A stretch of DNA of 64,000 nt from Clostridiales bacterium GWD2_32_19. Lineage in GTDB: Bacteria > Bacillota > Clostridia > Lachnospirales > UBA12420. The stretch covers positions 1-64,000 of the forward strand of contig MGOU01000021.1 in the NCBI GenBank assembly GCA_001795385.1, in the 5' to 3' direction. Positions 41,162 through 64,000 of the stretch are shown here, one piece after another. Numbering within the stretch: position 1 is the first letter of the stretch; every line of letters begins with the position of its first letter. The translations under genes were made by a program, and so were the position numbers. The notes under the pieces are model-generated. The model was not told where the DNA came from and did no database searches. It saw only the letters and a program-made list of their open reading frames with translations.

Positions 41162-41923
41162 ATGATACGTGGATTATATACTTCTGCAACAGGAATGGTT
41201 ACTCAATCAAAATTGCTTGATACAGTATCAAATAACCTAGCAAACGCAGATACAACAGGATTTAAAAAAGATACATTGGTAGTAAGTTCGTTTAAAGATG
41301 AACTCACTAAAAGAATTGGAAATAATGATAATAAAACTATAGGCGGTATGAAAATGGGCGTTTACGGTGATCAAACATATACAAATTTCATGCAAGGTTC
41401 CTTAAAACAAACTGGGAATAAGCTTGATTTTTCAATAAAGGGTGATGGTTTTTTTACTATAGAAACGAAAGATGCAAATGGAAATAAAGTTGAGCGTTTG
41501 ACAAGAAATGGATCCTTTACATTAAACGAAAATAAGCAGCTGGTTACTACTGATGGAGATGCAGTTATAGATGAAAATGGAGAACATATATTTATACCGG
41601 ATCGAGAGGTTTATATTCTAGATAATGATGGGAGGCTATTTTTAAATAATGAAAAGATAGCTAAACTTAAAGTAGTAAATATCGAAAATCCAGAAACATT
41701 GAGAAAATCAGGCAGTTCTATGTTTACAACTACACAAGCTACTAAGTTTACTGAATTTAATGGAGAAGTAATGCAAGGTTATACAGAAACATCAAATGTA
41801 AATATTATTAAAGAAATGGTTGATATGATTAATATAACAAGAAATTTTGAGACAAATCAAAAATTACTTCAAATACATGACCAACTGTTATCAAAATCAG
41901 CAAATGAAATAGGAAAAGTATAA
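41162..41923 (+). CDS. flhO: Flagellar basal-body rod protein (FlhO/FlgF-like)
   Basis: 253 residues from ATG 41162, 9 bases behind AGGAG; ATG 41153 abuts the site and is rejected. MIRGLYTSATGMVTQSKLLD and VSNNLANADTTGFKKD form the N-terminal flagellar rod motif; GDGFFTIETKDANG is the central FlgF/FlgG signature; the C-terminal helix has GYTETSNVNIIKEMVDMINI and FETNQKLLQ. Exported axial protein of the flagellar rod. The mbl-flhO-flhP order matches Bacillus. Confidence 0.93.
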   Translation: MIRGLYTSATGMVTQSKLLDTVSNNLANADTTGFKKDTLVVSSFKDELTKRIGNNDNKTIGGMKMGVYGDQTYTNFMQGSLKQTGNKLDFSIKGDGFFTIETKDANGNKVERLTRNGSFTLNENKQLVTTDGDAVIDENGEHIFIPDREVYILDNDGRLFLNNEKIAKLKVVNIENPETLRKSGSSMFTTTQATKFTEFNGEVMQGYTETSNVNIIKEMVDMINITRNFETNQKLLQIHDQLLSKSANEIGKV

Positions 41924-41953
41924 TTTTCAACTTTCTAAAAGGAGTGATAGAAT

Positions 41954-42808
41954 ATGATGCGTTCATTATGGACAGCGGCTAGTGGTATGAAAGCTCAACA
42001 GTTAAATATAGATGTTATTTCGAATAATCTGTCAAATGTAACAACAACAGGATATAAAAAATCACGTATGGAGTTTAAAGACTTGTTTTATGAAACTTTG
42101 GAAAAGTCTAGAGGGTCAGAAGAAAGCCAAAATCCAAGGCCAACTAGTTTACAAATAGGACATGGAGTTAGAGCTGCTGCTACTGTTAAAGATTTTACCA
42201 TAGGAAATATCGAACAAACAGGTGATGTTTTCAACTTTGCTTTAGAAGGAGACGGATTTTTTGCAGTAAAATCATTTGGAGCAACTGAAAGCGATAATGA
42301 TGTTAATTCTTATGTATATACTAAAGATGGATCATTTAAAGTATCGGCAGATGCAGATGGAATGAAATATTTAACTACAGCTCAAGGATACGTAATTATG
42401 AATCAAGATAACGAGCCTATAGTACTCTCTGGAGAAAATGGGGAAATCGATACTAGTAAGATAACAGTAGATCAAAATGGTTCATTTTCATATATTGATT
42501 CTACAAGTCAAAAGGTAGATTTGAATCAAAAGATAAAAGTAGTACAGTTTTTTAATCCAAATGGACTTGAAAGTATAGGAGATAACTTGTATAAGAGAAC
42601 TGCAGCATCAGGAAAAGAAATTTCTGAAGAAGAAGTACCTTCTTATAAAAAGAGCAAAGTACTTCAAGGATATTTGGAACGTTCTAATGTACAAATAGTT
42701 GAAGAAATGGTAAATATGATAGTAGCACAAAGAGCATATGAAATAAATTCAAAATCAATACAAGCGTCAGATGAAATGATGCAACAAGCAAATCAGCTTA
42801 GAAGGTAA
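41954..42808 (+). CDS. flhP: Flagellar basal-body rod protein (FlhP/FlgG-like)
   Basis: 284 residues, ATG behind AAAAGGAGTGATAGAAT. MRSLWTAASGMKAQQLNIDV and ISNNLSNVTTTGYKKSRMEF at the start, LEGDGFFAVKSFG in the middle, GYLERSNVQIVEEMVNMIVA and AYEINSKSIQASDEMMQQA at the end. Slightly longer than FlhO. Distal-rod type protein exported by the flagellar apparatus and cotranscribed with the gene before it. A strong terminator follows. Confidence 0.94.
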   Translation: MMRSLWTAASGMKAQQLNIDVISNNLSNVTTTGYKKSRMEFKDLFYETLEKSRGSEESQNPRPTSLQIGHGVRAAATVKDFTIGNIEQTGDVFNFALEGDGFFAVKSFGATESDNDVNSYVYTKDGSFKVSADADGMKYLTTAQGYVIMNQDNEPIVLSGENGEIDTSKITVDQNGSFSYIDSTSQKVDLNQKIKVVQFFNPNGLESIGDNLYKRTAASGKEISEEEVPSYKKSKVLQGYLERSNVQIVEEMVNMIVAQRAYEINSKSIQASDEMMQQANQLRR

Positions 42809-46980: not shown

Positions 46981-47016
46981 TATTACAATCATCAAGTCTA
47001 TTACAATCATCAAGTC
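46981..47016. repeat. 18-bp direct tandem repeat in the cassette 1 leader
   Basis: TATTACAATCATCAAGTC occurs twice in perfect tandem (46981-46998 and 46999-47016), in the transcribed leader of the SLH gene. Confidence 0.9.
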
Positions 47017-47068
47017 TATAAGTTGTATGGATGGACTTTGAAAAAACATTATATAGGAGGGGAATTAA

Positions 47069-47734
47069 GTGAAGAAAGTGAAAAAAATAATGGCGTATAT
47101 AATAATAATATTAATAAGTATTAGTATCATAAATATTAGCTATACAAAAGTGGAAGCAAATGACTTAAAATTAACTGATGTAAAAGAGGGAGACTGGTTT
47201 AAATCAAATGTCGAATTACTAATAGGAAAAGGAATAGTAAACGGATATACTGATGGAACATTCAAACCAAGTAACACAGTAACAAAAGCCCAATTTATAA
47301 AGATGGCTATTACATCAATAGGGCGAGATGATATACAGTTAGATAGTGAGTACTGGGCTAATAATTATATAAATGTTGCATATCAAGAAGGTTACATTGA
47401 AAGCAAGTACAGTAAAGACCAAAATTATGAGGCGCCTATAACAAGAGGTGAAATGGCAATAATAATTGCAAAGATAATAAACGAAGAAGCAAGTACTCAA
47501 GATATAATAAAATATGCAGATGAAATAAAAGATATTGATAAAGTTAATGGGCAAGATATGTTATACATAATAGAGACATATAAATATGGAATACTAAAGG
47601 GATATCCAGACGGAGAATTTAAACCTAACAATAATGCAACAAGAGCAGAAGCAAGTACTATGATAGTACGATTGCTAGATAAAATTAAAGATAGATCAGT
47701 ACCACAAGTGATTTCTGGTACTGGTGGAAACTAA
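47069..47734 (+). CDS. SLH-domain surface protein, cassette 1 anchor (SLH only)
   Basis: 221 residues from GTG 47069 behind AGGAGGGGAATTAA. Signal peptide (IMAYIIIILISISIINISYT) followed by three SLH domains: DVKEGDWFKSNVELLIGKGI and GYTDGTFKPSNTVTKAQF; then ITRGEMAIIIAKI; then GYPDGEFKPNNNATRAEAS. SLH trimers bind pyruvylated secondary wall polymers. Unlike the three later anchors it ends right after SLH3, with only a short Gly tail. The large vWA protein starts 14 bases downstream, so the two are cotranscribed and probably work together. Confidence 0.9.
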   Translation: MKKVKKIMAYIIIILISISIINISYTKVEANDLKLTDVKEGDWFKSNVELLIGKGIVNGYTDGTFKPSNTVTKAQFIKMAITSIGRDDIQLDSEYWANNYINVAYQEGYIESKYSKDQNYEAPITRGEMAIIIAKIINEEASTQDIIKYADEIKDIDKVNGQDMLYIIETYKYGILKGYPDGEFKPNNNATRAEASTMIVRLLDKIKDRSVPQVISGTGGN

Positions 47735-47747
47735 GGAGGTGGCTAGT

Positions 47748-50700
47748 ATGGATCAAATATTTAAGAGAATAGGGGCTTTAATATTAGTTGTAATTTTTAC
47801 ATTATCTAATGTGGTGTTTAATTTTAGTATATCAAATGCAGCAGTAACACCAGGAATTTATACTTGGACTCTTAATTCAAGTGGAACATGGAATGTAAAT
47901 TATGAAGGAAAACTACAACAGAGTGAGTGGTATTGGAATTCTGATGTATATAAATGTGATAATAATTGGAGTGGTGTAGTAAAACTAAAAGCAGGATATG
48001 AAATAAAGGCTACAAGTTCGTCTCCATTTTTAGATGAATACTATGTATTATGGATAAATAATGGTACTAGTTGGATGAGAACAAATGGTGTTCAGAGAAT
48101 AATGCAGACAGGGGTTAAATATAACTTTGAAGCAACTTTTCAGGAACCAACAAATATAACAAAGTTCGCAATAATACCATTAGAACCTAAGGCAGATGAT
48201 ACTACAGTATATAACTGGGGATATAATCTATATACAAGCACAGTAGAAACTGGAAATTCTGGTATCATGACCATGAGACCAGTTGACTTGGTCTTTGCAA
48301 TCGATACAAGTGGTAGTATGGACACTTATATCAATAGTGTTGAAACTAATATTGTAAATTTTTCTACAACACTTAAGAGCCAAGGTATAGATGTTAGACT
48401 AGGATGTATACTAATGGGTGATCATTATTACAATTTAGGAACTGTAAATGGTAAATATAGTATGACAGATCAGCCAGATAATATTAAGAATTTTTTAAAT
48501 GATCCTGAAGGACCGACTGATAACAGTGATTCAGAAGATTCTGTGCTGGGTGCTACAAATGCGATAAACAAGTATAATTGGAGAGCGGATGCTACAAAGT
48601 ATGTAGTAGGAATAACTGATGAAAACTTGCTACCGGGGAATACTACGCAAGCTATCTTTGATAATTTAAAACAATTATTAAGTGATACCCAAACTAAATT
48701 TATAGGTCTTAATGACCAATCAGCACATACTCTGTTGGCAGAGGCATCTGGTGGTTTTGCATTGCCACTGTCTGCAAACTTATCGGATCAATTAAATAAA
48801 ATAATAAATGCAATACTAGGAAAACCAATAATAATATCACCAGAAAATGCAGGCGAACCAGAGGAACATAAAGGTGAATACTTTAATCAAATGGATATAA
48901 TAGGAAGCTTGTCCTTTCCAGGTACTGGAAGTATCACCGTGAAATATCAAATAGAAGACATGAGCGGAAATATAAAACTAGGTCCGGAAACTTTAGTATC
49001 AGGACTAGTATCAAATAAAAAAGAAATACTATTCATGAAAAAGGGAATAGACATAGCAAATTGTGGTTTAATAGAATATAATCATTACATACTAAGAGTA
49101 TATCTAGAAGTAGATGGAGTTAAATTAAGTACATCAGAAACAGTAGAGTTCGTGAGAGCTGATAGTTTAGGACCACTAATTAATTTCGAAGTTCCAACAG
49201 GTAGTGATGTGGCATATCAAGCATTAATAAATATGACAATAAACGATAGTCAATCAGGAGTAAAGGAATATAGGTATAAATGGCTATGTAATCCACCATC
49301 TAGTTTATTGGGCAATACTATAAGTAATTTAGATTTAAGCCCACACATGGGAGAGTGGATGCCAGTTGAAGGACTAAGATATACAGTAACAGAGACGCTG
49401 AAATTTAGGGAAAGTGGGCCATGGTACCTATTTGCTCAAGCAACAGATAATAAAGATATTATGAGTTCAAAAAGGATGAATAAGGAGGTAATAATAGATA
49501 CAAAAGCACCAAAAATACCAGAATTGATAGTAAAAATAGATGATAATAATGTAATGCAAACAAGTTGGACACCATTTTCTGAATTTGCTGCAAGTGAAGT
49601 AAATCAAACAAACTATGTAGCTTCAGGATTCGGAGAAATGAGGCTATATGTACAAAAATGGGGTTTACTGGGAAATACCACTAATTACGGTTGGTCTAAC
49701 ATAGTAAATGACAGCAAAGGATATATACAAATAACAGATGAAAGTCAAGTTAGTAAGGAGATAACAAGCAGTATGTTAACTGAGCCTATAGACAAAGTTA
49801 AATTACGATATAGAGTAAAAATAAGACAAATAGACAAAGCAGCACTAGATTATATAACAACTTATACAATAAAAGATGAATGGGACCCAGCATATGCAGT
49901 TCAAAAATTTAAAGACACACAACTTGCTACTGGAGAAATAGTAAATATAGAAAGTATGGGAAACATAGCAGACTCAGGATGGGTACATACATTTGCAAAT
50001 TTAGGAGCAGTAGTGCTTAAATATCAAACAGAACCTCTAGAATGGGATATGATTGCAGGACGAGGGAAAATACTATTATCATGGAATGCAGTTGATGGAG
50101 CAAGTGGATATCAGGTAGAAGTATATGATGGAAATCAATGGAGTATATATGACATTAGTAAAGCAACAACATGGGATAGTAGTGAACAAAAATTATATCC
50201 TCTCACAAGTGAAGCAGTATTAAACAGTTATACAAATGATAGTATAAGCGACCAAATGTATTTACATAGTAAAGAAGGACTAGACCTAAGGGATAATCCA
50301 AACACTATATACAAAAAAACAATAGGAACGGCTTATAATGCAGAAACAATGTATAGCATAAGAGTAAGACCGTACACTTCAATTATGACAAATGGTGTTG
50401 AAATTCAGACACCAGGACCTATAGGACCAGATTCTACTGTGAAAGTAGAATTACAGAACAGAACGGATAGAACACCACCTACAGCTGCAATATTGGTAGA
50501 ATACGACACGACTGTAGCTAACTACTATAAATCAGCATTTATAACAATAACAGCAAATGACACGGAAAGTGGACCTCAAAAAATAGTACCGAGTAATATG
50601 AGTGGTCTAGAACTGATATCAACAGAAATAAAAGGGCAGTACATAACGAATGTATACAAAACATCAATAAATGGAACATATATGTTTACAGCTTTTGATA

Positions 50701-51074
50701 ATGTGGGATGGACTAAGACAATAAATGTAGATGTAAAAAATATAGATCCTGCAAAACCAATAATAGTATTTAGTAGAGAAGGTAAACTGGTAACAGAAAT
50801 ACATTTATCAGATAAAGTAAAAAGTGCGGGTTATACAAAATATGGAGATACACATGGAAGTAATAGTGCGCCTAATGCAACTAACCTATTAAGTGTAAGT
50901 AATAATGTTATAAATATACCATTAGTTATTGACACTATTGATACAACTTACACTATACCATACTATATAAAATTACAAAATAATAGCGGAAGTGCAGTAT
51001 TAAATGCTAAATTTAATGTATTGATTAATGGAAACAGGACTGAGATAATACAGGAATACTTAGTATATAATTAG
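47748..51074 (+). CDS. Large secreted vWA protein, cassette 1 partner
   Basis: 1108 residues from ATG 47748 behind AAGGAGGTGGCTAGT. Signal peptide (ALILVVIFTLSNVVFNF). A vWA domain about 179-370 has an intact MIDAS start DLVFAIDTSGSM (D186, S188, S190). The rest is beta-rich Ig/FnIII-like: DDSQSGV-type bacterial Ig repeats, IILLSWNAVDGASGYQVEVY-like FnIII (here ILLSWNAVDGASGYQVEVYD) and NIDPAKPIIVF near the end. There is no SLH, LPxTG, lipobox or C-terminal TM, so wall retention must come from a partner, plausibly the preceding SLH protein. From about residue 480 it is paralogous to the protein at 57983. Confidence 0.85.
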   Translation: MDQIFKRIGALILVVIFTLSNVVFNFSISNAAVTPGIYTWTLNSSGTWNVNYEGKLQQSEWYWNSDVYKCDNNWSGVVKLKAGYEIKATSSSPFLDEYYVLWINNGTSWMRTNGVQRIMQTGVKYNFEATFQEPTNITKFAIIPLEPKADDTTVYNWGYNLYTSTVETGNSGIMTMRPVDLVFAIDTSGSMDTYINSVETNIVNFSTTLKSQGIDVRLGCILMGDHYYNLGTVNGKYSMTDQPDNIKNFLNDPEGPTDNSDSEDSVLGATNAINKYNWRADATKYVVGITDENLLPGNTTQAIFDNLKQLLSDTQTKFIGLNDQSAHTLLAEASGGFALPLSANLSDQLNKIINAILGKPIIISPENAGEPEEHKGEYFNQMDIIGSLSFPGTGSITVKYQIEDMSGNIKLGPETLVSGLVSNKKEILFMKKGIDIANCGLIEYNHYILRVYLEVDGVKLSTSETVEFVRADSLGPLINFEVPTGSDVAYQALINMTINDSQSGVKEYRYKWLCNPPSSLLGNTISNLDLSPHMGEWMPVEGLRYTVTETLKFRESGPWYLFAQATDNKDIMSSKRMNKEVIIDTKAPKIPELIVKIDDNNVMQTSWTPFSEFAASEVNQTNYVASGFGEMRLYVQKWGLLGNTTNYGWSNIVNDSKGYIQITDESQVSKEITSSMLTEPIDKVKLRYRVKIRQIDKAALDYITTYTIKDEWDPAYAVQKFKDTQLATGEIVNIESMGNIADSGWVHTFANLGAVVLKYQTEPLEWDMIAGRGKILLSWNAVDGASGYQVEVYDGNQWSIYDISKATTWDSSEQKLYPLTSEAVLNSYTNDSISDQMYLHSKEGLDLRDNPNTIYKKTIGTAYNAETMYSIRVRPYTSIMTNGVEIQTPGPIGPDSTVKVELQNRTDRTPPTAAILVEYDTTVANYYKSAFITITANDTESGPQKIVPSNMSGLELISTEIKGQYITNVYKTSINGTYMFTAFDNVGWTKTINVDVKNIDPAKPIIVFSREGKLVTEIHLSDKVKSAGYTKYGDTHGSNSAPNATNLLSVSNNVINIPLVIDTIDTTYTIPYYIKLQNNSGSAVLNAKFNVLINGNRTEIIQEYLVYN

Positions 51075-51090
51075 ATAAATACATAAATTA

Positions 51091-51125
51091 GATAGTGTCA
51101 AAACTTTTGAATATTTTACACTACC
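51091..51125. repeat. AGTGTA...TACACT hairpin repeat, copy 3 (diverged centre)
   Basis: GATAGTGTCAAAACTTTTG then AATATTTTACACTACC; ends match copies 1 and 2, centre differs. Ends 23 bases before the GTG at 51149. Confidence 0.7.
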
Positions 51126-51148
51126 AAATCATGTAGGAGGGGAACTAA

Positions 51149-52273
51149 GTGAGAAAACTGAAATTAGTAGTAGTATATACATTGGTAATAATAATAAACA
51201 TTTATATAAATCTAGGCAATACAAATGTTTATGCAGAGAAGCTAAAACTAACTGATGTAAAAGATGGAGATTGGTTTAAGTCAAATGTAGAATTTCTTAT
51301 AGACAAAGGTATAGTAAATGGATATGCTGATGGTACATTTAAGCCAAGCGATACAGTAACAAAGGCTCAGTTTGTTAAGATGATTATAACATCAATTGGA
51401 TATACGGATATACCATCTGGAAGCAACTATTGGGCAGCGCCATATGTAGAAAAAGCAATGACGCTAGAAATATTATCGCCTCGAATAGTAACGAAAGATG
51501 AATTTGAGCAACCTATTTCTAGAGCAGACATGGCGCTAATAATATCAAAGGCATTACGAGAAGACTATGTGAAAAACATAGAAGACTATGCAAAACTTCT
51601 AAAAGATTATGCGAGTATAAATGATATATATAAGGAATATGTACTAAAAGCATACTCAAAGGGAATACTAGGCGGGTATTCTGATGGTGAATTCAAAGCT
51701 ACTAACAGTCTAACAAGAGCAGAAGCAAGTACAGTAATAGTGAGGATGCTGAATAAAAATGTTAGAATTAAAGTAAAGGTTGAGTTTACAGATGAAGATA
51801 CTGCAAGACTAAAAGGTTACGAATTTTCAAGTGGACAAGCGTTAAGCTTCGAACAAACAACAAGCACACTAGGAACATTTTATTCATTAGTTTATGAAAA
51901 TCAAGCAAAAGACTACTTGGAGCATGTTTTATATGGAGTTGACTATACTAAGTTGCAAGTAGATGAAATACCTTGGAGACTTGCGTACTTAGCAGCTAAA
52001 GCTGAAGAAAATAAAGAAGAAGAGGATAAAATAATTAAATACATTATTGATAATCAAATAATTAACGAAGCTAAATTTATCACAAGTGATAAATTTATGT
52101 ACAAGTCTACCACAGGAAATATAATGGTAAGAGGTATGCTAGAATATAAATATGTAAGCACACTTGAAGAAAACATAACAAAAAACACATTAATTAGAAA
52201 AGATGTAGAAGTAGAAATAACAGCAACACCAAATCAACCAATTATTGTCAAAAACATCAAATACCTAAATTAG
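51149..52273 (+). CDS. SLH-domain surface protein with C-terminal adaptor-like domain, cassette 2 anchor
   Basis: 374 residues from GTG 51149 behind GTAGGAGGGGAACTAA. Signal peptide, three SLH domains within about 30-205 (GYADGTFKPSDTVTKAQF; ISRADMALIISKAL; GYSDGEFKATNSLTRAEAS), then a domain of about 165 residues with YGVDYTKLQVDEIPW, INEAKFITSDKF and MVRGMLEYKYVSTLEENITK, ending VEVEITATPN. That domain recurs in the anchors at 56804 and 61042 and matches no family I know. The partner gene begins 12 bases downstream. Confidence 0.9.
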   Translation: MRKLKLVVVYTLVIIINIYINLGNTNVYAEKLKLTDVKDGDWFKSNVEFLIDKGIVNGYADGTFKPSDTVTKAQFVKMIITSIGYTDIPSGSNYWAAPYVEKAMTLEILSPRIVTKDEFEQPISRADMALIISKALREDYVKNIEDYAKLLKDYASINDIYKEYVLKAYSKGILGGYSDGEFKATNSLTRAEASTVIVRMLNKNVRIKVKVEFTDEDTARLKGYEFSSGQALSFEQTTSTLGTFYSLVYENQAKDYLEHVLYGVDYTKLQVDEIPWRLAYLAAKAEENKEEEDKIIKYIIDNQIINEAKFITSDKFMYKSTTGNIMVRGMLEYKYVSTLEENITKNTLIRKDVEVEITATPNQPIIVKNIKYLN

Positions 52274-52285
52274 GAGGTGACCAAC

Positions 52286-55200
52286 ATGAAGAATAAATTA
52301 TTTATATCATTAATAACTTTACTATTCATAAGCATATTTAGTTTTTCCAATATAGCTAATGCATTAGACATAGATCCGGGAATATCAGGAGGGTCTGGAG
52401 GTAGCGGAGCTTTTCTAAATGGAGGGATAGGTGCTGTAAGACTTATGCTTGTATATAGACCCGATAAAACTGCTGGTCCCGCAGGTGATACTATTTTACA
52501 TGAAAAGTTTTTTATGTATGGTAGTTGGCCAGATTATTTTGGAGGATTAAGTAATTTAGACAGTACTTTTTCAGCAGAATCTGTAGGAGGTCGTTTTAGT
52601 GCATCCTCGGATATCGTGTTGACTGATACACCTATGACAGATGCAAAAAATTATAACTTTCAGTCTGATTCAAATTGGAATTTTACGGATGCGCAGTTAA
52701 ATGCTTTAGTTACTGCAGGTAAAATACCCGCTATAGTTCCTAACAATTCAATAGCATATACAAGAATAAAAATATATTATAATTTTGGAGCATCTAACTT
52801 TGACATTTATAGGGTAGGTTTAGCAAGCAGTGATAAGACAACTGACTATAAGGCTGCTGAAGGAGCTGGTCTTAAACATGGTTCGATTTGGGTGTTAGGT
52901 AGAACTAGCTATGGGGCATATCTAAACGAATTTACAAGTATTATTACTTCAGGCTGGAATAGTTTACCTTCAGGTCAAATATACTCAAAAGTAGGAAAAT
53001 CACAAGTATTTAACGATAAAATTGGTAATAGTGGCATGCTAAATATTTATAATACAGATGAGGCTAGGAATGTATTAATAGATAGTAGTGATGGAAATCC
53101 TAGAATGAATGAAGGAATACCATTAATAAATGCGGACGGTTCATTCTCATTACTGAGTACTGATGAAATATATAATGGGGTTAGTGGTTATCCTCCTACT
53201 CCAACAGCTGACTATACATATATGGGATATAAAATCATATATAATACAGGCCTTAGATTGTTTTATCCATATGATAATTCATTAGATTCTTCATTTGATA
53301 GTGTAGCTCTGACACCTTCAAGTACTGTAAATGGAATAATAATAAGTCCAAATACAGTAGCTAATGTATGTTTTATATGGAGGCAAACCAAATCAGGTGT
53401 AATTAATGTAAGACATCTAGATCAATCAGGGAATGTTTTAGCATCAGTTGCTGTGAATGTACCTATGTCTACTACTGCTACTCCTACGCCATACACTATT
53501 GCATATAGCAATAATACGTATGGTCGAGCAAGCGTTCCAGCAGGCTTCACAATAGATGGTTCTTCAAATGGTGGCAAAACAGCTACAAATGTAAGACCAG
53601 GAATGCCGGCAAAAACAGCTGTAAATACAACATCAATATCATTCGCAAAGGACGATCCCACTAGATATGCATGGGTAGACTTCTACTGGCAAGGAACACC
53701 ACCAGTAAGCACAACTTATAATATAATATACGATGAAGCCAATTCTTTTCCACCTTATACAGATCTAGATAGAGTAAACTGGACAAATGATAGTGATGTT
53801 AAAGTATTTTATGATGGGGATGGTGTATTAGTATATAACGATGCAACTCTATTAAGAAGGGATCCTATGCAAAGCGGTGCGTCATATGTAAAAAACTCTA
53901 ATTTTGTCTCTGCATCACGTACTCCAGACACTACATATGTAGGTAACTACAAGAAAGATGTTACATTACACTATAAATGGGAGTGGACAACATATAGTAC
54001 TAATGCAGATGGTGAGACTGAAAGTGAGGATCATTCACAAACCGATGATGTTCCATGTACCTATTATGGATACTGGTATCTTGATAATATAGTTACATCA
54101 GGGAATGCCTTAAGGAATCCTAGTAATGGACTTATTGAGAGCAAAGATTATGTAGATTTAAATGAAGGCAAACAGATAAAGTTGAATGCTGTACCAGGGG
54201 TATGGGATACAAATTCTCACTGGGTAACTACACCGACGAAGCCATCTACTAAACCAGCTAGTGGTGCGTCTGGTAGTTTTGTTGAGAGTACAGATTGTGA
54301 TTACTATTTTAGACTTAATTTCCCAACTCCAAGTACACCTCCTTGGAATGGAGAAGTTAATCCAGGTAAATATAGTGTAGACTATACAGACCCAACAGTA
54401 AAAATAATAGCAAATATAGGAAGCACATCAACTCCTAATAAAATATCTGATATACCTCAAAGAAAATGGTTTGGTGGACCAGGATATGAACAAATAATAA
54501 CAATTGCCACAGTTTCAGATACAGATACAACTACATATAATAAAACAGGAAATAAATCAGGTATATGGGATGCTGATTTAACAGATACAACAAATGAATT
54601 TCTTCAAGATTTAACACTTGGTGGAGTTGTTGATGTAAGGCCAGCTAGTACAAATCATTATACAACATCAGAAACTATAGCACCTGAAGATATTCAGACA
54701 AAATCGCTTCCTAATTCTAGTAAAAATACAGGAAGACATACAGCATACTTACATGTGGAAGATTTTGCCAAGAATGAAAATGATCTTACAAAGTTGTATT
54801 TACTAGACAATATAAAGCCAACTATTGCATTTAGTGGAGCGGGTGTAGGATCCCCAACATGGTCTAATGTACCATTTACTATAGGGATGGCTTTCAAGGA
54901 TAAAGACTCAGGTCTAGATAAAATAGATTATAATTTAAGAAATGAATCAAGAGATACGACAACAAATGAATATATAGGAACAAATGAAAAATTAAAAAAT
55001 ATAGACTTTGGTAGAGATACACAAGGAGAAGTGGATTTAAATAATGAAATAAAAGAAATAAACTCAACTATAAAGATAGGTAAAGTTGGGGAAGTAGGAG
55101 AAGATGGAGAATACTACCTATATGTAAATCATGTTATAGATCCGGTAGGGAATAACCTTGGTAGTATAGAAAGAGGACCATATAAATATGATTCAACAAG

Positions 55201-56494
55201 ACCAAGTATAGATATGGACTTCAAAGGTAGAGCTGCACTGGCTAATATGGCAGGAATAAACAGGATTGAATATATATCAGATAGAGAAAATAAGATAAAT
55301 ATAGCTGTATGGGATAACATATCAGGTATAGATAAAATAGAATATGCTTTGGTGAAAGAAGATGACATATCTAATGCTCCAGAATTAACATTTGGTTGGC
55401 AGACGCTTCATACTTATAATGGATTGGGAAATAAATATATAAATATTTTAAAAGACAAAGATAATCCATATTTAAGTACTATAGAGATAGATGTTACTGA
55501 TTTATGGAAAGACATGAAAAGTGATTGGTATTATTTACACTTTAGGATAACAGACAGAGCAGGAAATGTGACGCTTGTATCAGGCACAGGTGCAACAGAT
55601 ATAACAACAAGCATACACATAGAATTAAGAAGACCAGCAGAAGCAAGATATAATTCTATACCGATATTTGTAGATAAGGTAGTACCTGAATTTACAGATA
55701 GATTTAGATTAACAGATGTAGCTGATCCAAGATGGAAAAGTACTTTAGAAGGTGATAAATATATACCAGTACTGGAGATGCCAGCATATACTAATGAAAA
55801 ACCTAGTAAGATAAAACTGGGATATAGAACATATTTTGAAGTAGATACAACAGGATATGGACATACGAGAGATGATAAGCTACATGTAAAAGCAAGATAT
55901 TTTGTAAATACACCAAATGGATACAAAGAAGTATCTATGTATCAACCAAAAGATAAATACAGTAATAGTTATGTAGAACAACCAAACTTGGAAATGGATA
56001 GGATAAGGACTGTTGATTATACTATTGATAACATAGATATACCAGGAGTCATAAAAACAATAGACATTTCAAAAGAACAATATAGATGGTTCTTTGACTT
56101 TTATATAAGACCAGATGCTAAATTTGTTAGAAAAGATGCAGGAGCACCAGCTAACATAGACTTGTCAAGGACTGATCAAACAAAATTCTTTGTAGATACG
56201 AAAGTAAGTCCGAATTTACTTGTGTTATTTGAAGTTGATGCGTATAGACGCCCTAATTATGCTTATCCTGGATTTGACACTAGATTAGATTTCACACAAC
56301 AAGATGATGCTTGGGGAGATGGTCCAGATCCTACAAGCTACGGAAATAAAAATCCATCAAGAAATGACTTGATAGGAAAAGGTATGGGAACAATTCTTGC
56401 CGGTGATCTAAACCACGGAGAAATATTCTGGTACGATTTACAAAACACACTAATAGATGATCTTCAAGGTAATACAGAGTGGAGTGGAAATTAA
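52286..56494 (+). CDS. Giant secreted MucBP/Ig-like protein, cassette 2 partner
   Basis: 1402 residues from ATG 52286, 6 bases behind AGGAGGTGA; GTG 52277 falls inside that site. Signal peptide (LFISLITLLFISIFSFSNIA), a Gly/Ser linker (ISGGSGGSGAF), an N-terminal region of about 330 residues shared with the protein at 62238 (YNTGLRLFYPYDNSLDSSF), a MucBP-like segment near 372 (INVRHLDQSGNVLASV), then beta-rich Ig-like segments (DNIKPTIAFSGAG; YKYDSTRPSIDMDF; IDKIEYALVKED). No SLH, LPxTG or TM anchor. Likely a long adhesin or surface-layer component displayed by the SLH protein upstream. Confidence 0.85.
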   Translation: MKNKLFISLITLLFISIFSFSNIANALDIDPGISGGSGGSGAFLNGGIGAVRLMLVYRPDKTAGPAGDTILHEKFFMYGSWPDYFGGLSNLDSTFSAESVGGRFSASSDIVLTDTPMTDAKNYNFQSDSNWNFTDAQLNALVTAGKIPAIVPNNSIAYTRIKIYYNFGASNFDIYRVGLASSDKTTDYKAAEGAGLKHGSIWVLGRTSYGAYLNEFTSIITSGWNSLPSGQIYSKVGKSQVFNDKIGNSGMLNIYNTDEARNVLIDSSDGNPRMNEGIPLINADGSFSLLSTDEIYNGVSGYPPTPTADYTYMGYKIIYNTGLRLFYPYDNSLDSSFDSVALTPSSTVNGIIISPNTVANVCFIWRQTKSGVINVRHLDQSGNVLASVAVNVPMSTTATPTPYTIAYSNNTYGRASVPAGFTIDGSSNGGKTATNVRPGMPAKTAVNTTSISFAKDDPTRYAWVDFYWQGTPPVSTTYNIIYDEANSFPPYTDLDRVNWTNDSDVKVFYDGDGVLVYNDATLLRRDPMQSGASYVKNSNFVSASRTPDTTYVGNYKKDVTLHYKWEWTTYSTNADGETESEDHSQTDDVPCTYYGYWYLDNIVTSGNALRNPSNGLIESKDYVDLNEGKQIKLNAVPGVWDTNSHWVTTPTKPSTKPASGASGSFVESTDCDYYFRLNFPTPSTPPWNGEVNPGKYSVDYTDPTVKIIANIGSTSTPNKISDIPQRKWFGGPGYEQIITIATVSDTDTTTYNKTGNKSGIWDADLTDTTNEFLQDLTLGGVVDVRPASTNHYTTSETIAPEDIQTKSLPNSSKNTGRHTAYLHVEDFAKNENDLTKLYLLDNIKPTIAFSGAGVGSPTWSNVPFTIGMAFKDKDSGLDKIDYNLRNESRDTTTNEYIGTNEKLKNIDFGRDTQGEVDLNNEIKEINSTIKIGKVGEVGEDGEYYLYVNHVIDPVGNNLGSIERGPYKYDSTRPSIDMDFKGRAALANMAGINRIEYISDRENKINIAVWDNISGIDKIEYALVKEDDISNAPELTFGWQTLHTYNGLGNKYINILKDKDNPYLSTIEIDVTDLWKDMKSDWYYLHFRITDRAGNVTLVSGTGATDITTSIHIELRRPAEARYNSIPIFVDKVVPEFTDRFRLTDVADPRWKSTLEGDKYIPVLEMPAYTNEKPSKIKLGYRTYFEVDTTGYGHTRDDKLHVKARYFVNTPNGYKEVSMYQPKDKYSNSYVEQPNLEMDRIRTVDYTIDNIDIPGVIKTIDISKEQYRWFFDFYIRPDAKFVRKDAGAPANIDLSRTDQTKFFVDTKVSPNLLVLFEVDAYRRPNYAYPGFDTRLDFTQQDDAWGDGPDPTSYGNKNPSRNDLIGKGMGTILAGDLNHGEIFWYDLQNTLIDDLQGNTEWSGN

Positions 56495-56515
56495 GGTTTG
56501 TATCAGTTAATGTAT

Positions 56516-56557
56516 AAAAGAAGAGGACAGTATATAATATTGGACTCTTCTTTTTTT
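56516..56557 (+). terminator. Terminator after cassette 2
   Basis: AAAAGAAGAG (56516-56525) pairs with CTCTTCTTTT (56545-56554), followed by more T residues. Confidence 0.8.
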
Positions 56558-56674
56558 CTATGTATTCCTTTATTAATATTTATAGTAAGTATAATACTAG
56601 TTAAAGTCTGTATAATGGGGTTAAGTCCCTTATTTGCTTTAATACAAAAATTTCCGTAATTTTATTTAAAAATA

Positions 56675-56705
56675 TGTCGAAATATGTATAAAAAGATGAT
56701 ATAAT
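56675..56705 (+). promoter_or_regulatory. Spo0A box at the -35 of a sigma-A promoter, cassette 3
   Basis: Perfect 0A box TGTCGAA (56675-56681) overlaps a -35 of TCGAAA (56677-56682); 17-base spacer; TATAAT (56700-56705). This layout matches Spo0A-activated sigma-A promoters. Confidence 0.55.
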
Positions 56706-56803
56706 AGATTAAGTAATATAAATATTTTACCATATCCAAAATATATTCAATAACGAAGGGATGGTATTTTAAAGTATAACATATTATACGAGGAGGTAAT
56801 GTA

Positions 56804-57955
56804 ATGAGAAAGATATTAGTAAGTTTATTGGTAGTATTATTTTTTTTAAACACAGGTACTGTATTTGCTAAAACGTTAGATGAAGTTAAAAGTGACGTGG
56901 TGGAATTGAAAAAGAAAGCCATAGAAAAATTTTTAGATGTAAAAGAGAAAGATTGGTATTTAGAAAATGTTGCAATATTAACAGAGTTAGGAATAATAAG
57001 TGGATATGAAGATGGAACATTTAAGCCTAATGAAACAATAACAACAGCACAGTTTATAAAGTTAGTGGTAACATCACTCGGTCATACAGACATAGTAAAC
57101 GGAAATGTATATTGGGCGAGAGAATACATAAAAAAGGCATATGAAATAGGTATTACTGATATTGATTACAGTAGTCAAGTAAACTATGATGAACCAATTA
57201 ACAGGGCAAACATGGCAGTTATAATATCACGCGCACTGAAAGAAGAGTACGATAGTGATATACAAAAGTATGCAGCTTTAATAAATGATTATAGTAGTAT
57301 AGAAAGTTTTTATAAGATAGAGATACTAAATACATACTCAAAAGGAATAATCTCAGGATACCCAGATGGGGAGTTTAAGCCAAATAATAGTTTGACAAGG
57401 GCAGAAGCAACAACGGTTATATATAGAATGTTGAGTAAGGATGATAGAGTAAATGTTGGGGAATTACTTTTAAAAGCTGAAGAGGGACAAAAAGCAGGAG
57501 CAGATGAATATAAAAATATGGTAGATAGCATGGGTATTAAAAATGATTTATCCGAAACAGCAATTCAAATTTCTAAAATATTTATTGAGAATGTAAAATA
57601 TGGAGTTAATTATAAAAAAATTATAGAAGATTCAACAGAGTGGGAAAAACAGTTTGATATTACAATTGTAGACAACGATGTAACAGATGAAAACAAGAAC
57701 TATAAATCAGATAGTTATAAGCAATTCCTTAAAGAACAAATAATTGCAAATGAAATAATATGTGAGGCTGAGTTTAAATCAGATAAACTAAAAGTAAAAA
57801 TTTTAGATGGTAAAATACAAGTGACAGGAACAGTAAAAACAATATATACTAGCGGAACTGGTGATTTCACTTTAAATAATACAATAGAAAAAGATATAAC
57901 TATTGAATTAATAAATTATAATGGAAGAATTAGCATAAGTAAAATAATTAACTAA
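56804..57955 (+). CDS. SLH-domain surface protein with adaptor-like domain, cassette 3 anchor
   Basis: 383 residues, ATG behind CGAGGAGGTAATGTA. Signal peptide (ILVSLLVVLFFLNTGTVFA), a short charged helix (KSDVVELKKKAIEKFLDVKE), three SLH domains (GYEDGTFKPNETITTAQF; INRANMAVIISRAL; GYPDGEFKPNNSLTRAEA) and the C-terminal domain: KYGVNYKKIIEDSTEW, EIICEAEFKSDKLKVKI, KIQVTGTVKTIYTSG. It is the most diverged of the three adaptor-bearing anchors. The Gly-rich giant starts 27 bases downstream. Confidence 0.9.
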   Translation: MRKILVSLLVVLFFLNTGTVFAKTLDEVKSDVVELKKKAIEKFLDVKEKDWYLENVAILTELGIISGYEDGTFKPNETITTAQFIKLVVTSLGHTDIVNGNVYWAREYIKKAYEIGITDIDYSSQVNYDEPINRANMAVIISRALKEEYDSDIQKYAALINDYSSIESFYKIEILNTYSKGIISGYPDGEFKPNNSLTRAEATTVIYRMLSKDDRVNVGELLLKAEEGQKAGADEYKNMVDSMGIKNDLSETAIQISKIFIENVKYGVNYKKIIEDSTEWEKQFDITIVDNDVTDENKNYKSDSYKQFLKEQIIANEIICEAEFKSDKLKVKILDGKIQVTGTVKTIYTSGTGDFTLNNTIEKDITIELINYNGRISISKIIN

Positions 57956-57982
57956 ATTATATTTTAGAAAGGAGACGATAGG

Positions 57983-60970
57983 ATGAAATATTATATGAAA
58001 AGATTTTTAGCAATTGTTATAAGTATATGTTTTGTTATAAGTAGTGGACTATATATACCAACTACAGTAGATGCAGCAACTATATGGAATTATGGTTATA
58101 TTGGAAGTCAGCAAACATTTACTGCCTCTATTGCGGGTAAGTATTTACTAGAAGTATGGGGTGCACAAGGTGGTAACGGTTCTGGAGGGACAGGAGGTTA
58201 TTCAAAAGGTGAAATAACTTTAGCAAAAAATGATATCCTATATGTTTATGTGGGAGGCTCTAATGGATATAATGGAGGAGGCTCAGGACATGGTAGATCA
58301 TCAGATGTCGGTGGTGGTGGTACAGATATAAGAAAGGGTAGTACTTCTATCTACAACAGGATAATTGTTGCTGGAGGAGGAGGAGGTATTGGTCCAGCGT
58401 ACGGAGGAGTTGGCGGTGGAGCAATTGGAGGAACAGGAGGAGATCATTTCGGTACTCCGGGTTCTGGTGGAACTCAAAGTTCAGGTGGATATGGTGGTTC
58501 TAATTATGGTAATTCAGGTTCACTAGGTCAAGGTGGTTCTAATAATACCGATTCACGATCAGGTGGTGGAGGCGGTGGTGGTGGTTACTACGGTGGAGGC
58601 TCTGGTGGTAACGACTATTCAAGATATAGAGATTATGATGACTCAGGTGCAGGTGGAGGATCTGGTTATATAGGTGGAGTTAGTGGCGGTTACATGCTAA
58701 GTGGAGAGCGTTATGGAAGCGGATATGCAAGAATAACACAATTAACAGTAATAGATACAACAGCTCCAGTGATAAGCTTAAGCGCAACACCAACAGCATT
58801 AACAAATGGATTAGTAACAATAAACTGCATAATAACAGACGATAATGCTATAACAGTAAAAAAATGGGCAGTAGGAAATCAAACATTATCATATTTTACA
58901 TCAAGTGGAACAAACCTATCAGGAACAAGCTTTACAGTATCAACAAATGGAGTATATACAGTATACGCAAAAGATGAGTTTGGAAATGCAGCTGTAAAAA
59001 CAATAACAATATCTAACATAGATAATAATGGACCTACTATAACATTTAATATACCAACAAATAATGAAATAAGTTATCAGACACTAGTAAATATGACAAT
59101 AACAGATCAAGGAGGAATAACAAAATACAGGTATAAATGGATGTCTAATCCACCATCAAGCTTAATGGGAGAGGCGATAAGTCCAATAGACTTAGATTTA
59201 TATATGGGGTATTGGTCAACATTAGCAGAAAACCCAACAATAAAGGCGGAACAGCTACAATTAAACCAAATTGGGCAATGGTATTTATTTGTACAAGCAG
59301 TGGATGTGATGGGAAATATATCATCAACAAGACTAGACGAAGAATTGAAAATGGACACGCTAGCACCAAAAGAACCAAGTATAACAGTATCAATAGATGA
59401 AAACGGGGTAATGCAAACAAACTGGACAGCTTACAGTGAATACAGTCAATCAGAGCTAGATCAAATAAACTCTGAATTAGGATATAACTACACAACAACA
59501 GAAGGGAAAATAGTAAATATAAAATCAGACGGAAATGTAAGTATTGTCTCATCAGGATTTGGAGAGATGAGATTATATGTACAAAAATGGGGAAAAGTAG
59601 ATGGGGTAAACTATGGTTGGTATAACATATTAAAAAGTGGTGAATATATACGAATAACAAACCAAAGTCAAGTAAGCCAACAAATAACAAATACAATGGT
59701 AAACGACGGAGCAATAGATGGAAATGGAGCAAGATATAGAGTGAAAATAAGACAAATAGACAAAGCGGGATTATATTACATAATAGACAATGGAATAAAA
59801 GATGAGTGGGACAAAACATACGCAGCCCAAAAATTTAAAGATACAGCACTTTCACCAGAAGGGACAGCAAACATAGAAACGATGGGAAATATAGCAGACT
59901 CAGGATGGGAAGAAACATACGCAAAAATGGGTGCTGTAGTACTACAATATCAAGTGATACCAGGTGTATGGCACCCAAGCGAAGGACGAGGACAAATAAA
60001 ACTAACTTGGGTACCAGTAGCAAGAGCAAATGGATATTATGTAGAAATATATGACGGTAATCAGTGGAGTAGATTTGATGCAGGTGATACAACAACATGG
60101 GACAGTAGTCAAGGAAAAATCTATCCAAGTGAAAGTGTGATAGCAAGTAAAACAAACAACAGTGTGAGTACAGAAATATACTTGCACAACAAAACAGGAC
60201 TAGACCTAAGAGATAACCCAAATAACATATACAAAAAAACAATAGGAACAGGGTATGATGCCGAGATGAAATACAGCATAAGAGTAATACCATATATCTC
60301 GGAAATAACTCGATTAATAAATGGACAACTAATAGAAGAGCGAGTTGACGGTCCGATAGGCCCACAGTCAGTAGCAATAGTAGAACTAATACATAGGACA
60401 GACAAAAATGAGCCAACAGGACTAACTGAAGTAGCATATGTAGACAATTACACAGCATCAACAATAACAGTAAGAATGACTGATATTGAAAGTGGACCAA
60501 AAGATATAACAGGCCCAAGTGGAGCAACTTTAATAAGTACAGCAGTAAATGGACAATATATGACAAAAGTATTTAGAGTAACAGGAAATGGAACATATAA
60601 CTTCACTATAAAGGACAATGTGGACAGATTTACAGTAGTAACAGCAGAAGTAAAAAACATAAACCCAAACAAACCAATAATAATATTTAACAGAGAAGAA
60701 AAAACATTTATAGAAATGCATCTACCAAGTAACACACAATCACCAATTTATACGAAATACGGATATACATTCGGAAGTAACAGTACACCGATAGCAAATA
60801 TTACATTAGTAAATAGTGCAATAAGTATAAAATTAGAAATAAATCCATCAAGCACAAATTACACCATACCATACTATATAAAACTACAAAATGCAAGTGG
60901 ATCAGTTTTAAATAAGAAATATAATGTAACAATAACTGGAGACAGGACAGATATAAAAGAAGTTTATTAA
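57983..60970 (+). CDS. Large secreted Gly-rich/FnIII protein, cassette 3 partner
   Basis: 995 residues, ATG behind AAAGGAGACGATAGG. Signal peptide to about residue 31, then a Gly-rich domain about 40-250 (SIAGKYLLEVWGAQGGNGSG; IIVAGGGGGIGPAYGGVGGG) of the ALK/LTK-type Gly_rich family that caps receptor and phage-tail ends. Next, Ig-like and FnIII-like regions that parallel the C-terminal half of the 47748 protein (YRYKWMSNPPSSLMGEAI; SSGFGEMRLYVQKWG; YRVKIRQIDKAGLYYI; GLDLRDNPNNIYKKTIGT). No wall-sorting signal, SLH or TM. The vWA domain of its paralogue is replaced here by the Gly-rich module. Confidence 0.85.
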   Translation: MKYYMKRFLAIVISICFVISSGLYIPTTVDAATIWNYGYIGSQQTFTASIAGKYLLEVWGAQGGNGSGGTGGYSKGEITLAKNDILYVYVGGSNGYNGGGSGHGRSSDVGGGGTDIRKGSTSIYNRIIVAGGGGGIGPAYGGVGGGAIGGTGGDHFGTPGSGGTQSSGGYGGSNYGNSGSLGQGGSNNTDSRSGGGGGGGGYYGGGSGGNDYSRYRDYDDSGAGGGSGYIGGVSGGYMLSGERYGSGYARITQLTVIDTTAPVISLSATPTALTNGLVTINCIITDDNAITVKKWAVGNQTLSYFTSSGTNLSGTSFTVSTNGVYTVYAKDEFGNAAVKTITISNIDNNGPTITFNIPTNNEISYQTLVNMTITDQGGITKYRYKWMSNPPSSLMGEAISPIDLDLYMGYWSTLAENPTIKAEQLQLNQIGQWYLFVQAVDVMGNISSTRLDEELKMDTLAPKEPSITVSIDENGVMQTNWTAYSEYSQSELDQINSELGYNYTTTEGKIVNIKSDGNVSIVSSGFGEMRLYVQKWGKVDGVNYGWYNILKSGEYIRITNQSQVSQQITNTMVNDGAIDGNGARYRVKIRQIDKAGLYYIIDNGIKDEWDKTYAAQKFKDTALSPEGTANIETMGNIADSGWEETYAKMGAVVLQYQVIPGVWHPSEGRGQIKLTWVPVARANGYYVEIYDGNQWSRFDAGDTTTWDSSQGKIYPSESVIASKTNNSVSTEIYLHNKTGLDLRDNPNNIYKKTIGTGYDAEMKYSIRVIPYISEITRLINGQLIEERVDGPIGPQSVAIVELIHRTDKNEPTGLTEVAYVDNYTASTITVRMTDIESGPKDITGPSGATLISTAVNGQYMTKVFRVTGNGTYNFTIKDNVDRFTVVTAEVKNINPNKPIIIFNREEKTFIEMHLPSNTQSPIYTKYGYTFGSNSTPIANITLVNSAISIKLEINPSSTNYTIPYYIKLQNASGSVLNKKYNVTITGDRTDIKEVY

Positions 60971-60977
60971 TATGAGG

Positions 60978-61005
60978 CCAGGATGCCCACATACGGGTAT
61001 CCTGG
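60978..61005 (+). other. G+C-rich hairpin between cassettes 3 and 4
   Basis: CCAGGATGCCC (60978-60988), loop ACATAC, GGGTATCCTGG (60995-61005), one G-U pair. Followed by AAAAG rather than T residues; a weak or mRNA-processing element. Confidence 0.65.
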
Positions 61006-61041
61006 AAAAGTATAAAATAATTTCTGACAGGAGGGAGCAAA

Positions 61042-62226
61042 GTGATCAAAATAAAAAATATACTAGCATATGTAGTGCTAATATTAATAGGTATTAGCAG
61101 CATAAACCTAAGATATACAACTGTAGAAGCAAGTGACCTAAATTTAACGGATGTAAGAGAGTCAGATTGGTTTAAATCAAATATAGAGTTTTTAATAGAT
61201 AAAGGTATAGTAAATGGATACACAGATGGCACATTTAAACCAAATAATACAGTAACAAAAGCTCAGTTTGTAAAGATGGTTATCACAGCGATGGGGCATA
61301 ATGAACTACAAAATGGAGGCGATTACTGGGCTAGTCCGTATATAAAGAAAGCTATGTTTTTAAACATATTATCATCAAAGGAAGTGATTCCTGAAGAGTT
61401 TGAAGCACCTATAATCAGGGCTGATATGGCGATAATAATATCCAAAGCATTACAAGAAGAATACGCAGATAATTTGGATGAGTATGCAAGTCTTTTAAAA
61501 GATTATGAAAGTATAAAAGATATATATAAAGAATCTGTACTTAAAACATATTCGAAAGGAATAATAGGTGGATACTCAGACGGCGAGTTTAAAGCTAATA
61601 ATAGCCTCACAAGAGCAGAAGCGAGTACAGTAATTGTGAGAATGATAGATACATCTAAAAGAGTACAAGTAGAAACTATATTTTCAGAAGAAGATATGAA
61701 AATACTGCAAGACTATCAAATAAATAAAGACATGTATAAAACAGGATATACAGGATTAACAAAAAGTTTCGGACAAGTTTCTACTGAAAGATTAGGAGAA
61801 TATATAACAGATCTTTGCATAGATACGGCGAAGACTTATGTTGAAAAAGTAAAATATGGTGTAAATTATTCGGAACTAAAAGAAAATGATAAAGAGTGGA
61901 GAACATACTATATAGAATCTATGGGGACAACTGATGTATTAGATAACAACGAGAAGTATTCTTATGAAGAATACCAAGACAAACTAATAAAACAATATAT
62001 AGATGACGAAACTATAAGCGAAGCGCAGTTTATGACAAATAATGATTTGGTATATATTACTGATACGGGAACTGTTGCAGTTAGAGGGATACTGAAGTAT
62101 ACTTATTTGAATACGCTTGATGCAAACATAGAAAAATTTGTTACTGTAAAAGAATATGTAGAAATAGAAATAAGAAGTAATGCAAACGCAGAATTTATGG
62201 TTAATAAAATTATAAAAATGAACTAG
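61042..62226 (+). CDS. SLH-domain surface protein with adaptor-like domain, cassette 4 anchor
   Basis: 394 residues from GTG 61042 behind AGGAGGGAGCAAA. Signal peptide (ILAYVVLILIGISSINL), three SLH domains (GYTDGTFKPNNTVTKAQF; IIRADMAIIISKAL; GYSDGEFKANNSLTRAEAS) and the shared C-terminal domain: KYGVNYSELKENDKEW, ISEAQFMTNNDLVYI, AVRGILKYTYLNTLDANIEK, YVEIEIRSNAN. Closest to the cassette 2 anchor, as its partner is to the cassette 2 partner, which implies duplication of whole two-gene units. Confidence 0.9.
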   Translation: MIKIKNILAYVVLILIGISSINLRYTTVEASDLNLTDVRESDWFKSNIEFLIDKGIVNGYTDGTFKPNNTVTKAQFVKMVITAMGHNELQNGGDYWASPYIKKAMFLNILSSKEVIPEEFEAPIIRADMAIIISKALQEEYADNLDEYASLLKDYESIKDIYKESVLKTYSKGIIGGYSDGEFKANNSLTRAEASTVIVRMIDTSKRVQVETIFSEEDMKILQDYQINKDMYKTGYTGLTKSFGQVSTERLGEYITDLCIDTAKTYVEKVKYGVNYSELKENDKEWRTYYIESMGTTDVLDNNEKYSYEEYQDKLIKQYIDDETISEAQFMTNNDLVYITDTGTVAVRGILKYTYLNTLDANIEKFVTVKEYVEIEIRSNANAEFMVNKIIKMN

Positions 62227-62237
62227 GAGGTGAAAAG

Positions 62238-64000
62238 ATGAAGAATTTATTTAGAGGAATGCTCAGTTTTTTAATAATACTATTGTTATCAATAAACATA
62301 ACATGTGCATCTGGTATAATAGATCCAGGAACCAGTGGTGGGGGAGGGAATACTAGCAGTTTAACAGGTGGTATCGTAAGTGTAGAGCTGCAACTAAGAT
62401 TTGTAGAAAATAAGTATACAGGTGCAGTAAATCATCTTGTACACAGAAAAAATTTTAGTGGATCAGGATTTTTAACCTCATATCTAGGACATAACTTAAA
62501 TACTGCAGAGTGGAAGTTTAATTCTAAAGCAGAGTTAGAAGCTGCAGTTGGAGGAACAGTTGATATTACACAAGAATATCTATGGTATACGAGATCAATT
62601 TTCACATTGCAAGGCGGTGGAACAATTGATATTTGGAGAAAAGGACCAAGTTCAATGAGCTCTGATTATACAACTTATATAAATAATGGTGGTATAAAAA
62701 ATGCAAGTGGAGCTTGGATACTCGGATCAAGTCAAGACGACGAGATTTTGAGCTTAGGTGGTTGGAGTGGTGGTAGTGAGTACTGCACATCAGGAAAATC
62801 ACAAGCAAATAAAGGTACAATGCCACCTGCGCTAGCATATAGACTAAACATTTATAATGCAGATGAAAGTAGAAATGTATTGGTAGACACTAGTGATGGT
62901 AATCTAAGAAAAAATGAAGGAATATCACTATCTCTTGCATATCCTTCATTCTCATTAAGGTATGATGAACCATATAACGGTAATAGTGGCTATCCGCCAC
63001 CAACAACTGAATATACATATGTGGGATGGAAAATTATATATAATACTGGTGCTTCACTATTTTATCCAGCTGATGGTTCGCTAGATTCTTCGTTTGATAG
63101 TGTAAGCTTGACAACTGGAGATACTGCATCCATAAATATAGTAAATCCAAATACAACAGTAAATTTATGTTTTATATGGAAGAAAAATTCAGGTGGTGTA
63201 ATAAATGTAAGACATTTAGACAATGCTGGGAATGTCTTAACAACAACTACAAAAACAGTATCAACCATAGCGCTATATGCAGAAACTATAGCATATAATA
63301 CCACTGCATATGGTTACTCAGCTTCAAACTTTGCAAATTACACAAGTACAGGATATACATATTATTGTACTCCCACAAGTTCAAGACCAGTAATAGCACA
63401 AATACTTCAACCAAATAAATCTATTAACGCTACCTTTGGGGTAAACGATCCAAATAGATATATGTGGATAGATTTTTATTGGAATGGAACGCCTGTGCCA
63501 AGTACAAACGAATATGACATATTATATTCTCCACCTGACTCAGTAAATCCTCCTAGATTTAACTGGACAGACAATGATGATGTGAGAGTATTTTATGAAC
63601 CCGATGCAACGCCATATAGGAGAGATCCTATGACTTTAAATAACTCTACATATGAAAAAAACACATATGCAACAAGGTCAAAATCTCCTGAAACAAATGG
63701 ATCTTATGAACAAGACATAACTCTAAACTATAAATGGACATGGAGAGAAAAGCATACATCAACATCTACCGATTCTGAGGGAAATACCACTACTAGAACT
63801 TGGTATACAAATAAAAGTGATACAGTACGAGTTGACTGTACCTATGCAGGATATTGGGAATTACATAGGATAGTTGCATCAGGAAATGCATTAAGAAGTG
63901 GTGCAAATATAAGTCATAATGATACTGTTAACCTAAATGAAGGTAAAAGGATAGAACTAGACTCAATACCAGGAATATGGGATAGCCATAGTTGGTGGGT
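62238..64000 (+). CDS. Giant secreted MucBP-like protein, cassette 4 partner (3' end outside window)
   Basis: Frame open from ATG 62238 (AGGAGGTGAAAAG before it) to the window edge without a stop, at least 587 codons. Signal peptide (GMLSFLIILLLSINITCASG), a Gly-rich linker, and a region paralogous to the 52286 protein throughout: YNTGASLFYPADGSLDSSF, INVRHLDNAGNVL near residue 322, DPNRYMWIDFYWNGTPVP, RFNWTDNDDVRVFYEPDATP. The cysteine near residue 23 does not fit a lipobox. Starts 11 bases after the cassette 4 anchor, repeating the cassette layout. Confidence 0.9.
   Translation, partial: MKNLFRGMLSFLIILLLSINITCASGIIDPGTSGGGGNTSSLTGGIVSVELQLRFVENKYTGAVNHLVHRKNFSGSGFLTSYLGHNLNTAEWKFNSKAELEAAVGGTVDITQEYLWYTRSIFTLQGGGTIDIWRKGPSSMSSDYTTYINNGGIKNASGAWILGSSQDDEILSLGGWSGGSEYCTSGKSQANKGTMPPALAYRLNIYNADESRNVLVDTSDGNLRKNEGISLSLAYPSFSLRYDEPYNGNSGYPPPTTEYTYVGWKIIYNTGASLFYPADGSLDSSFDSVSLTTGDTASINIVNPNTTVNLCFIWKKNSGGVINVRHLDNAGNVLTTTTKTVSTIALYAETIAYNTTAYGYSASNFANYTSTGYTYYCTPTSSRPVIAQILQPNKSINATFGVNDPNRYMWIDFYWNGTPVPSTNEYDILYSPPDSVNPPRFNWTDNDDVRVFYEPDATPYRRDPMTLNNSTYEKNTYATRSKSPETNGSYEQDITLNYKWTWREKHTSTSTDSEGNTTTRTWYTNKSDTVRVDCTYAGYWELHRIVASGNALRSGANISHNDTVNLNEGKRIELDSIPGIWDSHSWW

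Follow-up and report, generated by a model that had tools for sequence, protein, structure and literature searches.

The window, as the whole stretch of 64,000 nucleotides analysed from Clostridiales bacterium GWD2_32_19 is called here, ends in an array of alternating genes for SLH proteins and for very large secreted proteins, referred to below as giants. SLH domains bind secondary wall polymers, and the array represents a genuine, unnamed two-part variant of SLH-based surface display. In the reading favoured here, given a probability of about 0.55, each SLH protein docks a giant to the wall without a covalent bond, and the two together act as an accessory to a Tad-like machine.

Open reading frame calls on the + strand give eight genes between 47069 and contig position 66257, in which SLH protein and giant alternate. 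A sequence-only reading of this DNA had described four SLH/giant cassettes at 47069-64000; the open reading frames bear these out, with the fourth giant running past the end of the window. The features of the array are as follows, the ATG start of giant A1 having been picked by its ribosome-binding site.

47069-47734, + strand: SLH1, 221 aa; signal-peptide-like N-terminus and three SLH repeats, with no further domain
47748-51074, + strand: giant A1, 1108 aa from ATG; VWA-type head (188-320) and conserved A-type C-terminal ~400 aa
51149-52273, + strand: SLH2, 374 aa; SLH repeats and a C-terminal domain of ~170 aa (profile A6, weakly NTF2-like)
52286-56494, + strand: giant B1, 1402 aa from ATG; variable N-terminal part, weak Ig-like matches and conserved C-terminal ~440 aa
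56516-56554, + strand: terminator-like hairpin followed by a T-run, closing block 1; dG -17.9 kcal/mol, z -5.0
56804-57955, + strand: SLH3, 383 aa; SLH repeats and an A6-type C-terminal domain; opens block 2
57983-60970, + strand: giant A2, 995 aa; ALK/LTK-type glycine-rich head (51-253) and A-type C-terminal region homologous to that of A1
60978-61005, + strand: strong hairpin without a T-run, between A2 and SLH4; z -4.8
61042-62226, + strand: SLH4, 394 aa; SLH repeats and an A6-type C-terminal domain
62238-64000, + strand, cut by the window end: giant B2; the full protein has 1339 aa and ends at contig position 66257

The SLH-to-giant gaps measure 13, 12, 27 and 11 bp and are accompanied by strong ribosome-binding sites, in agreement with the spacing of 11-27 bases and the strong SD sequences described earlier. 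Cassettes within a block are separated by 74 and 71 bp and the two blocks by 309 bp, and 3' of giant B2 lies another terminator-like hairpin, whose stem pairs perfectly over 25 bp. Because the in-block gaps are small, because B1 is followed by 309 bp and a hairpin with a T-run, and because a hairpin also follows B2, the array is better described as two tandem four-gene operons, [SLH-A-SLH-B] x2, than as four cassettes. Likewise, since A1/A2 and B1/B2 are separate families of giants, what is repeated is a block of four genes, found twice. Neither the A/B alternation nor the two-operon structure figured in the sequence-only reading, and the same is true of the tie to Tad-like pilus operons set out below. 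Only individually folded hairpins were used as terminator evidence; scans for promoter and terminator consensus sequences did no better overall than chance, and no known RNA elements were found within the window. Roughly 25 genes of the ~2 Mb genome encode SLH domains, so that four pairs side by side, with further examples in other families, are far beyond chance.

All four SLH proteins match PF00395 in a Pfam scan. An AF2 model of SLH4, built from window sequences only, matches the solved SLH trimers 3pyw (B. anthracis) and 6cwf at E values of 1e-6 to 1e-5, with a TM score by target of about 0.71 against 3pyw and SpaA-SLH, and the trimer characteristic of SLH-anchored wall proteins is thus present. 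The ligand of SLH domains is pyruvylated (PMC6081394), and CsaB, which pyruvylates the wall polymer and is associated with SLH anchoring, has its gene on contig C41 of the same genome (TIGR03609, 253 bits with a cut-off of 213). Beyond their repeats, SLH2-4 carry the additional C-terminal domain A6, of ~170-190 aa, which SLH1 lacks. The A6 model is of low confidence (region pLDDT about 30-65), with matches to NTF2-like/VirB8/TcpC folds at E values of about 0.01-0.1, where an NTF2-like fold was taken as helices followed by a curved four-strand sheet and judged by structural match.

A reverse search for A6 in 381 genomes of the class recovered anchors in which A6 is preceded by SLH in some cases and by PF07833, Cu_amine_oxidN1, in others, and for most of the hits from other genera the next gene encodes a large secreted protein. 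This replacement of SLH by Cu_amine_oxidN1 with retention of A6 fits an anchor-plus-adaptor design, and the findings suggest that PF07833 can act as an envelope-attachment module. Cu_amine_oxidN1 proteins stand in the place of the SLH anchor beside giants at loci L122, L129, L110, L152, L154, L155 and L157. A universal docking domain in the anchor is ruled out, since A6 is missing from several anchors: the short SLH partners on contig C17 of the window's genome and in the congener UBA12072 resemble SLH1 in having no C-terminal docking domain, and the anchors of G320, G468, G242, SKW257 and Alkaliphilus possess C-terminal regions other than A6. Such anchors count against the docking reading.

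The giants possess a hydrophobic, signal-peptide-like N-terminus. They had been described as free of SLH, LPxTG, lipobox and TM anchors, and inspection of motifs and TM segments agrees with Pfam on this point, since the giants show neither a second TM-like segment nor an LPxTG-like motif nor a lipobox, and Pfam detects no wall-binding domain in them. A1 and A2 have about 400-700 C-terminal residues in common, with tails that are 54-57% identical, and their heads are unrelated, comprising a VWA domain in A1 and an ALK/LTK-type glycine-rich domain in A2. B1 and B2 share 54-56% identity along most of the chain and 66% in their tails, and the last 22 residues are the same in both. A single family of A and B giants was rejected, as comparison of the tail profiles gave no match. 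The complete A-type tail was found in the window's genus only, with partial matches in other members of the order, and a PDB sequence search with A1 gave no match.

Different families have kept the C-terminal region of the B giants (profile A4), at the end of which stand a near-constant strand and an [ST]-A-x-DD-[LY] motif; the C-terminal end of B1 is FWYDLQNTLIDDLQGNTEWSGN. The motif is kept within B/DUF5704, and its interpretation as a universal C-terminal sorting motif was dropped, held-out unrelated giants having scored E values of 3-5. Several relatives that bear the B tail, as judged by the same tail profile, match PF18964 (DUF5704); B1 and B2 give no PF18964 match above the cut-off. An initial scan of genome contigs with B1 alone returned no relatives, and an AF2 model made for the B tail, at a mean pLDDT of 51, was too poor for use.

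The sequence-only reading had proposed a modular surface system, with co-occurrence and co-evolution of the pairs as points to check. Searches made with giants only recovered 25 B/DUF5704 giants, the window's included, each with a visible upstream gene, and in 23 of them that gene is of the anchor type, usually within 30 bp. Four of these anchors are of the Cu_amine_oxidN1 kind and the other 19 are SLH genes, so that B/DUF5704 giants are not frequently found without an adjacent SLH gene; two of the SLH partners (in G722 and G625) are degenerate and match only a family-specific SLH profile. Of the remaining two giants, one lies at a contig end behind an A giant, and the other has its SLH gene downstream (G004, contig C75). 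In the window's genome, contig C17 carries a third set, A-SLH-B, and contig C8 (L134:1959-12529) encodes an A6-bearing SLH protein, a 2134-aa giant whose gene comes 21 bp later, and then four small pilin-like genes. The C8 pair and its pilin-like genes are flanked by transposase-like genes. A reversed pair, consisting of a 1263-aa secreted giant, 20 bp and then an SLH protein, is present on contig C19 (L049:1809-6511). In the congener UBA12072 (G001), A-SLH-B occupies the tgt-yigZ slot, which is also where the window array lies. The co-occurrence of SLH protein and giant extends well beyond the window's genome. Three SLH partners, SLH1 and those of C17 and UBA12072, consist almost only of SLH repeats, which counts against a physical hold of the SLH protein on the giant.

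Anchor and giant trees agree where resolved, with (SLH2,SLH4) corresponding to (B1,B2) and with C17 and UBA12072 grouped in the SLH, A and B trees alike. A Mantel test of anchor C-regions against giants, which is confounded by species relatedness, gave a Pearson r of 0.55 (p 0.0005) and a Spearman coefficient of 0.07 (p 0.22), and anchor C-region similarity tracks giant similarity only among close relatives.

Several features of the surroundings were also recorded. An 18-bp unit, ATTACAATCATCAAGTCT, occurs in two direct copies at 46982-47017, between a promoter-like site and SLH1. Straight after the second operon, at 66435-68441 of the window's contig, C21 (L010:6436-8442), lies the gene of a 668-aa protein with a signal-like N-terminus and without a family match, which is missing from the same slot in UBA12072. 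Flagellar basal-body rod-type genes are found near the array in the window's genus (window 41153-42808) and beside an SLH/DUF5704 pair in G406 (L126:4157-5856). An SLH/B pair close to that of Clostridiales GWE2_32_10, with an SLH protein 79% identical, is present on L140 (MEOD01000015.1), a contig labelled Bacteroidetes bacterium GWF2_29_10 that is probably mis-binned.

The association with Tad-like machines is seen in G021, where the gene order is CpaB-CpaE-TadA-TadB-TadC, four pilin-like genes, and then SLH-B-SLH-B. The pair is contiguous with a Tad-like operon in G320, G468, G625, G722 and Clostridia SKW257 as well, while Tad-like genes lie close to an A6-type anchor in G070 and G205. These machines are divergent, their T2SSE matches falling below the cut-off. 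A Tad-like (TadA-like) ATPase is encoded in 22 of 24 pair-bearing genomes, as compared to 38 of 148 genomes of the class (Fisher p about 1e-9 to 1e-10, uncorrected for phylogeny); the pair-bearing genomes were picked through giant and anchor searches rather than through Tad genes, and the query ATPase came from one of them. A T2SSE search gives no match on contig C21, and by this measure Tad genes are not contiguous with the window's cassettes. The window's genome instead encodes an intact, unlinked Tad-like operon on contig C6, with an ATPase 58% identical to that of G021, and in this genome and two congeners the orthologous operon has no SLH or giant genes at its end.

A scheme that would connect these observations begins with all eight proteins probably leaving the cell by Sec. 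The SLH trimer is predicted to bind pyruvylated secondary wall polymer, CsaB being encoded in the genome, and the giant, having no anchor of its own, would be held non-covalently beside the SLH protein via its conserved C-terminal region. The conserved tail would then form the docking end on the inside, with the variable head, whether VWA, glycine-rich or Ig-like, facing outward as an adhesin. The pair probably belongs to a wider Clostridial anchor/giant family that is often located at the 3' end of Tad-like type IV filament operons, and in the window's genome it would have been amplified at a separate chromosomal slot.

It is also conceivable, if unlikely, that SLH protein and giant are independent and merely co-transcribed, with the giant binding the wall or other surface polymers itself and the pairing ensuring co-expression only. 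The partners that amount to nothing but SLH repeats (SLH1, C17 and UBA12072), the downstream SLH gene of the G004 giant, and anchor C-region/giant co-evolution that is not demonstrable at a distance speak for such independence. Co-expression alone, however, has difficulty explaining immediate adjacency in the same order in many families together with replacement of the anchor module, and the giants' lack of any wall-binding domain found so far weighs against their binding the wall unaided.

Quite unlikely, too, is a reading that makes the pair chiefly a structural component of the Tad-like filament machine, the SLH partner serving, for example, as a wall-level collar or guide and the giant as a filament-associated adhesin. 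This would account for pairs that are contiguous with Tad-like operons in several families and for the co-occurring ATPase, and it draws on the view that monoderm Tad systems have lost the secretin (PMC6668835) and on the VWA and lectin modules carried by type IV pilus tips, as in PilB/PilC of S. sanguinis (PMC12075869), given the VWA head of A1. In the window's genus, however, the pairs are unlinked and multicopy whereas there is a single copy of the machine operon, the orthologue of the one in G021; in addition, two pair-bearing genomes have no ATPase match, and the N-termini of the giants are Sec-like. Docking of the giant by its SLH partner, with the pair as an accessory of the machine in possible contact with the filament, remains the preferred reading. 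A bolder and doubtful version of it would make the pair a display module of monoderm Clostridia, in which the docking domain of swappable SLH or Cu_amine_oxidN1 anchors places giant, variable-headed adhesins at the exit of the Tad-like machine, the spot in the wall that the secretin port fills in diderms.

Comparison with known systems places the array among SLH surface proteins (PF00395; S-layer and S-layer-associated proteins such as Sap and SpaA), with which it has in common the SLH trimer for non-covalent binding to pyruvylated polymer and an encoded CsaB. In classical SLH proteins, however, a single chain combines SLH with functional domains, whereas here these are split over two adjacent genes. 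In the cellulosomal SLH-cohesin anchoring of scaffoldins, an SLH-bearing partner likewise displays a large protein non-covalently, as proposed here, but the Pfam scan found no cohesin or dockerin domains in the eight proteins. DUF5704 proteins have the C-terminal region and terminal motif of the B giants and usually have an SLH gene in front of them too, differing in their PF18964 match. A resemblance to the Tad/Flp pili of monoderms lies in the anchor/giant pairs that close Tad-like operons in several families, whereas the window array is unlinked to its machine operon. A further likeness is that between the VWA head of A1 and a type IV pilus tip adhesin, the VWA minor pilin of S. sanguinis (PMC12075869), but the window's giants look Sec-secreted and not pilin-like. 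Within the open literature, as distinct from subscription sources, no description of a two-gene SLH/giant system was found, nor any function or mention of DUF5704.

These findings suggest that many large unanchored Clostridial proteins that now bear a hypothetical or DUF5704 annotation make up one half of a two-gene unit for wall display. Cu_amine_oxidN1 gains a testable role as an alternative to SLH, and both it and the SLH/giant pairs become tied to the poorly studied Tad-like machines of monoderm bacteria. If the proposal is true, gene order alone would predict partners across many genomes.
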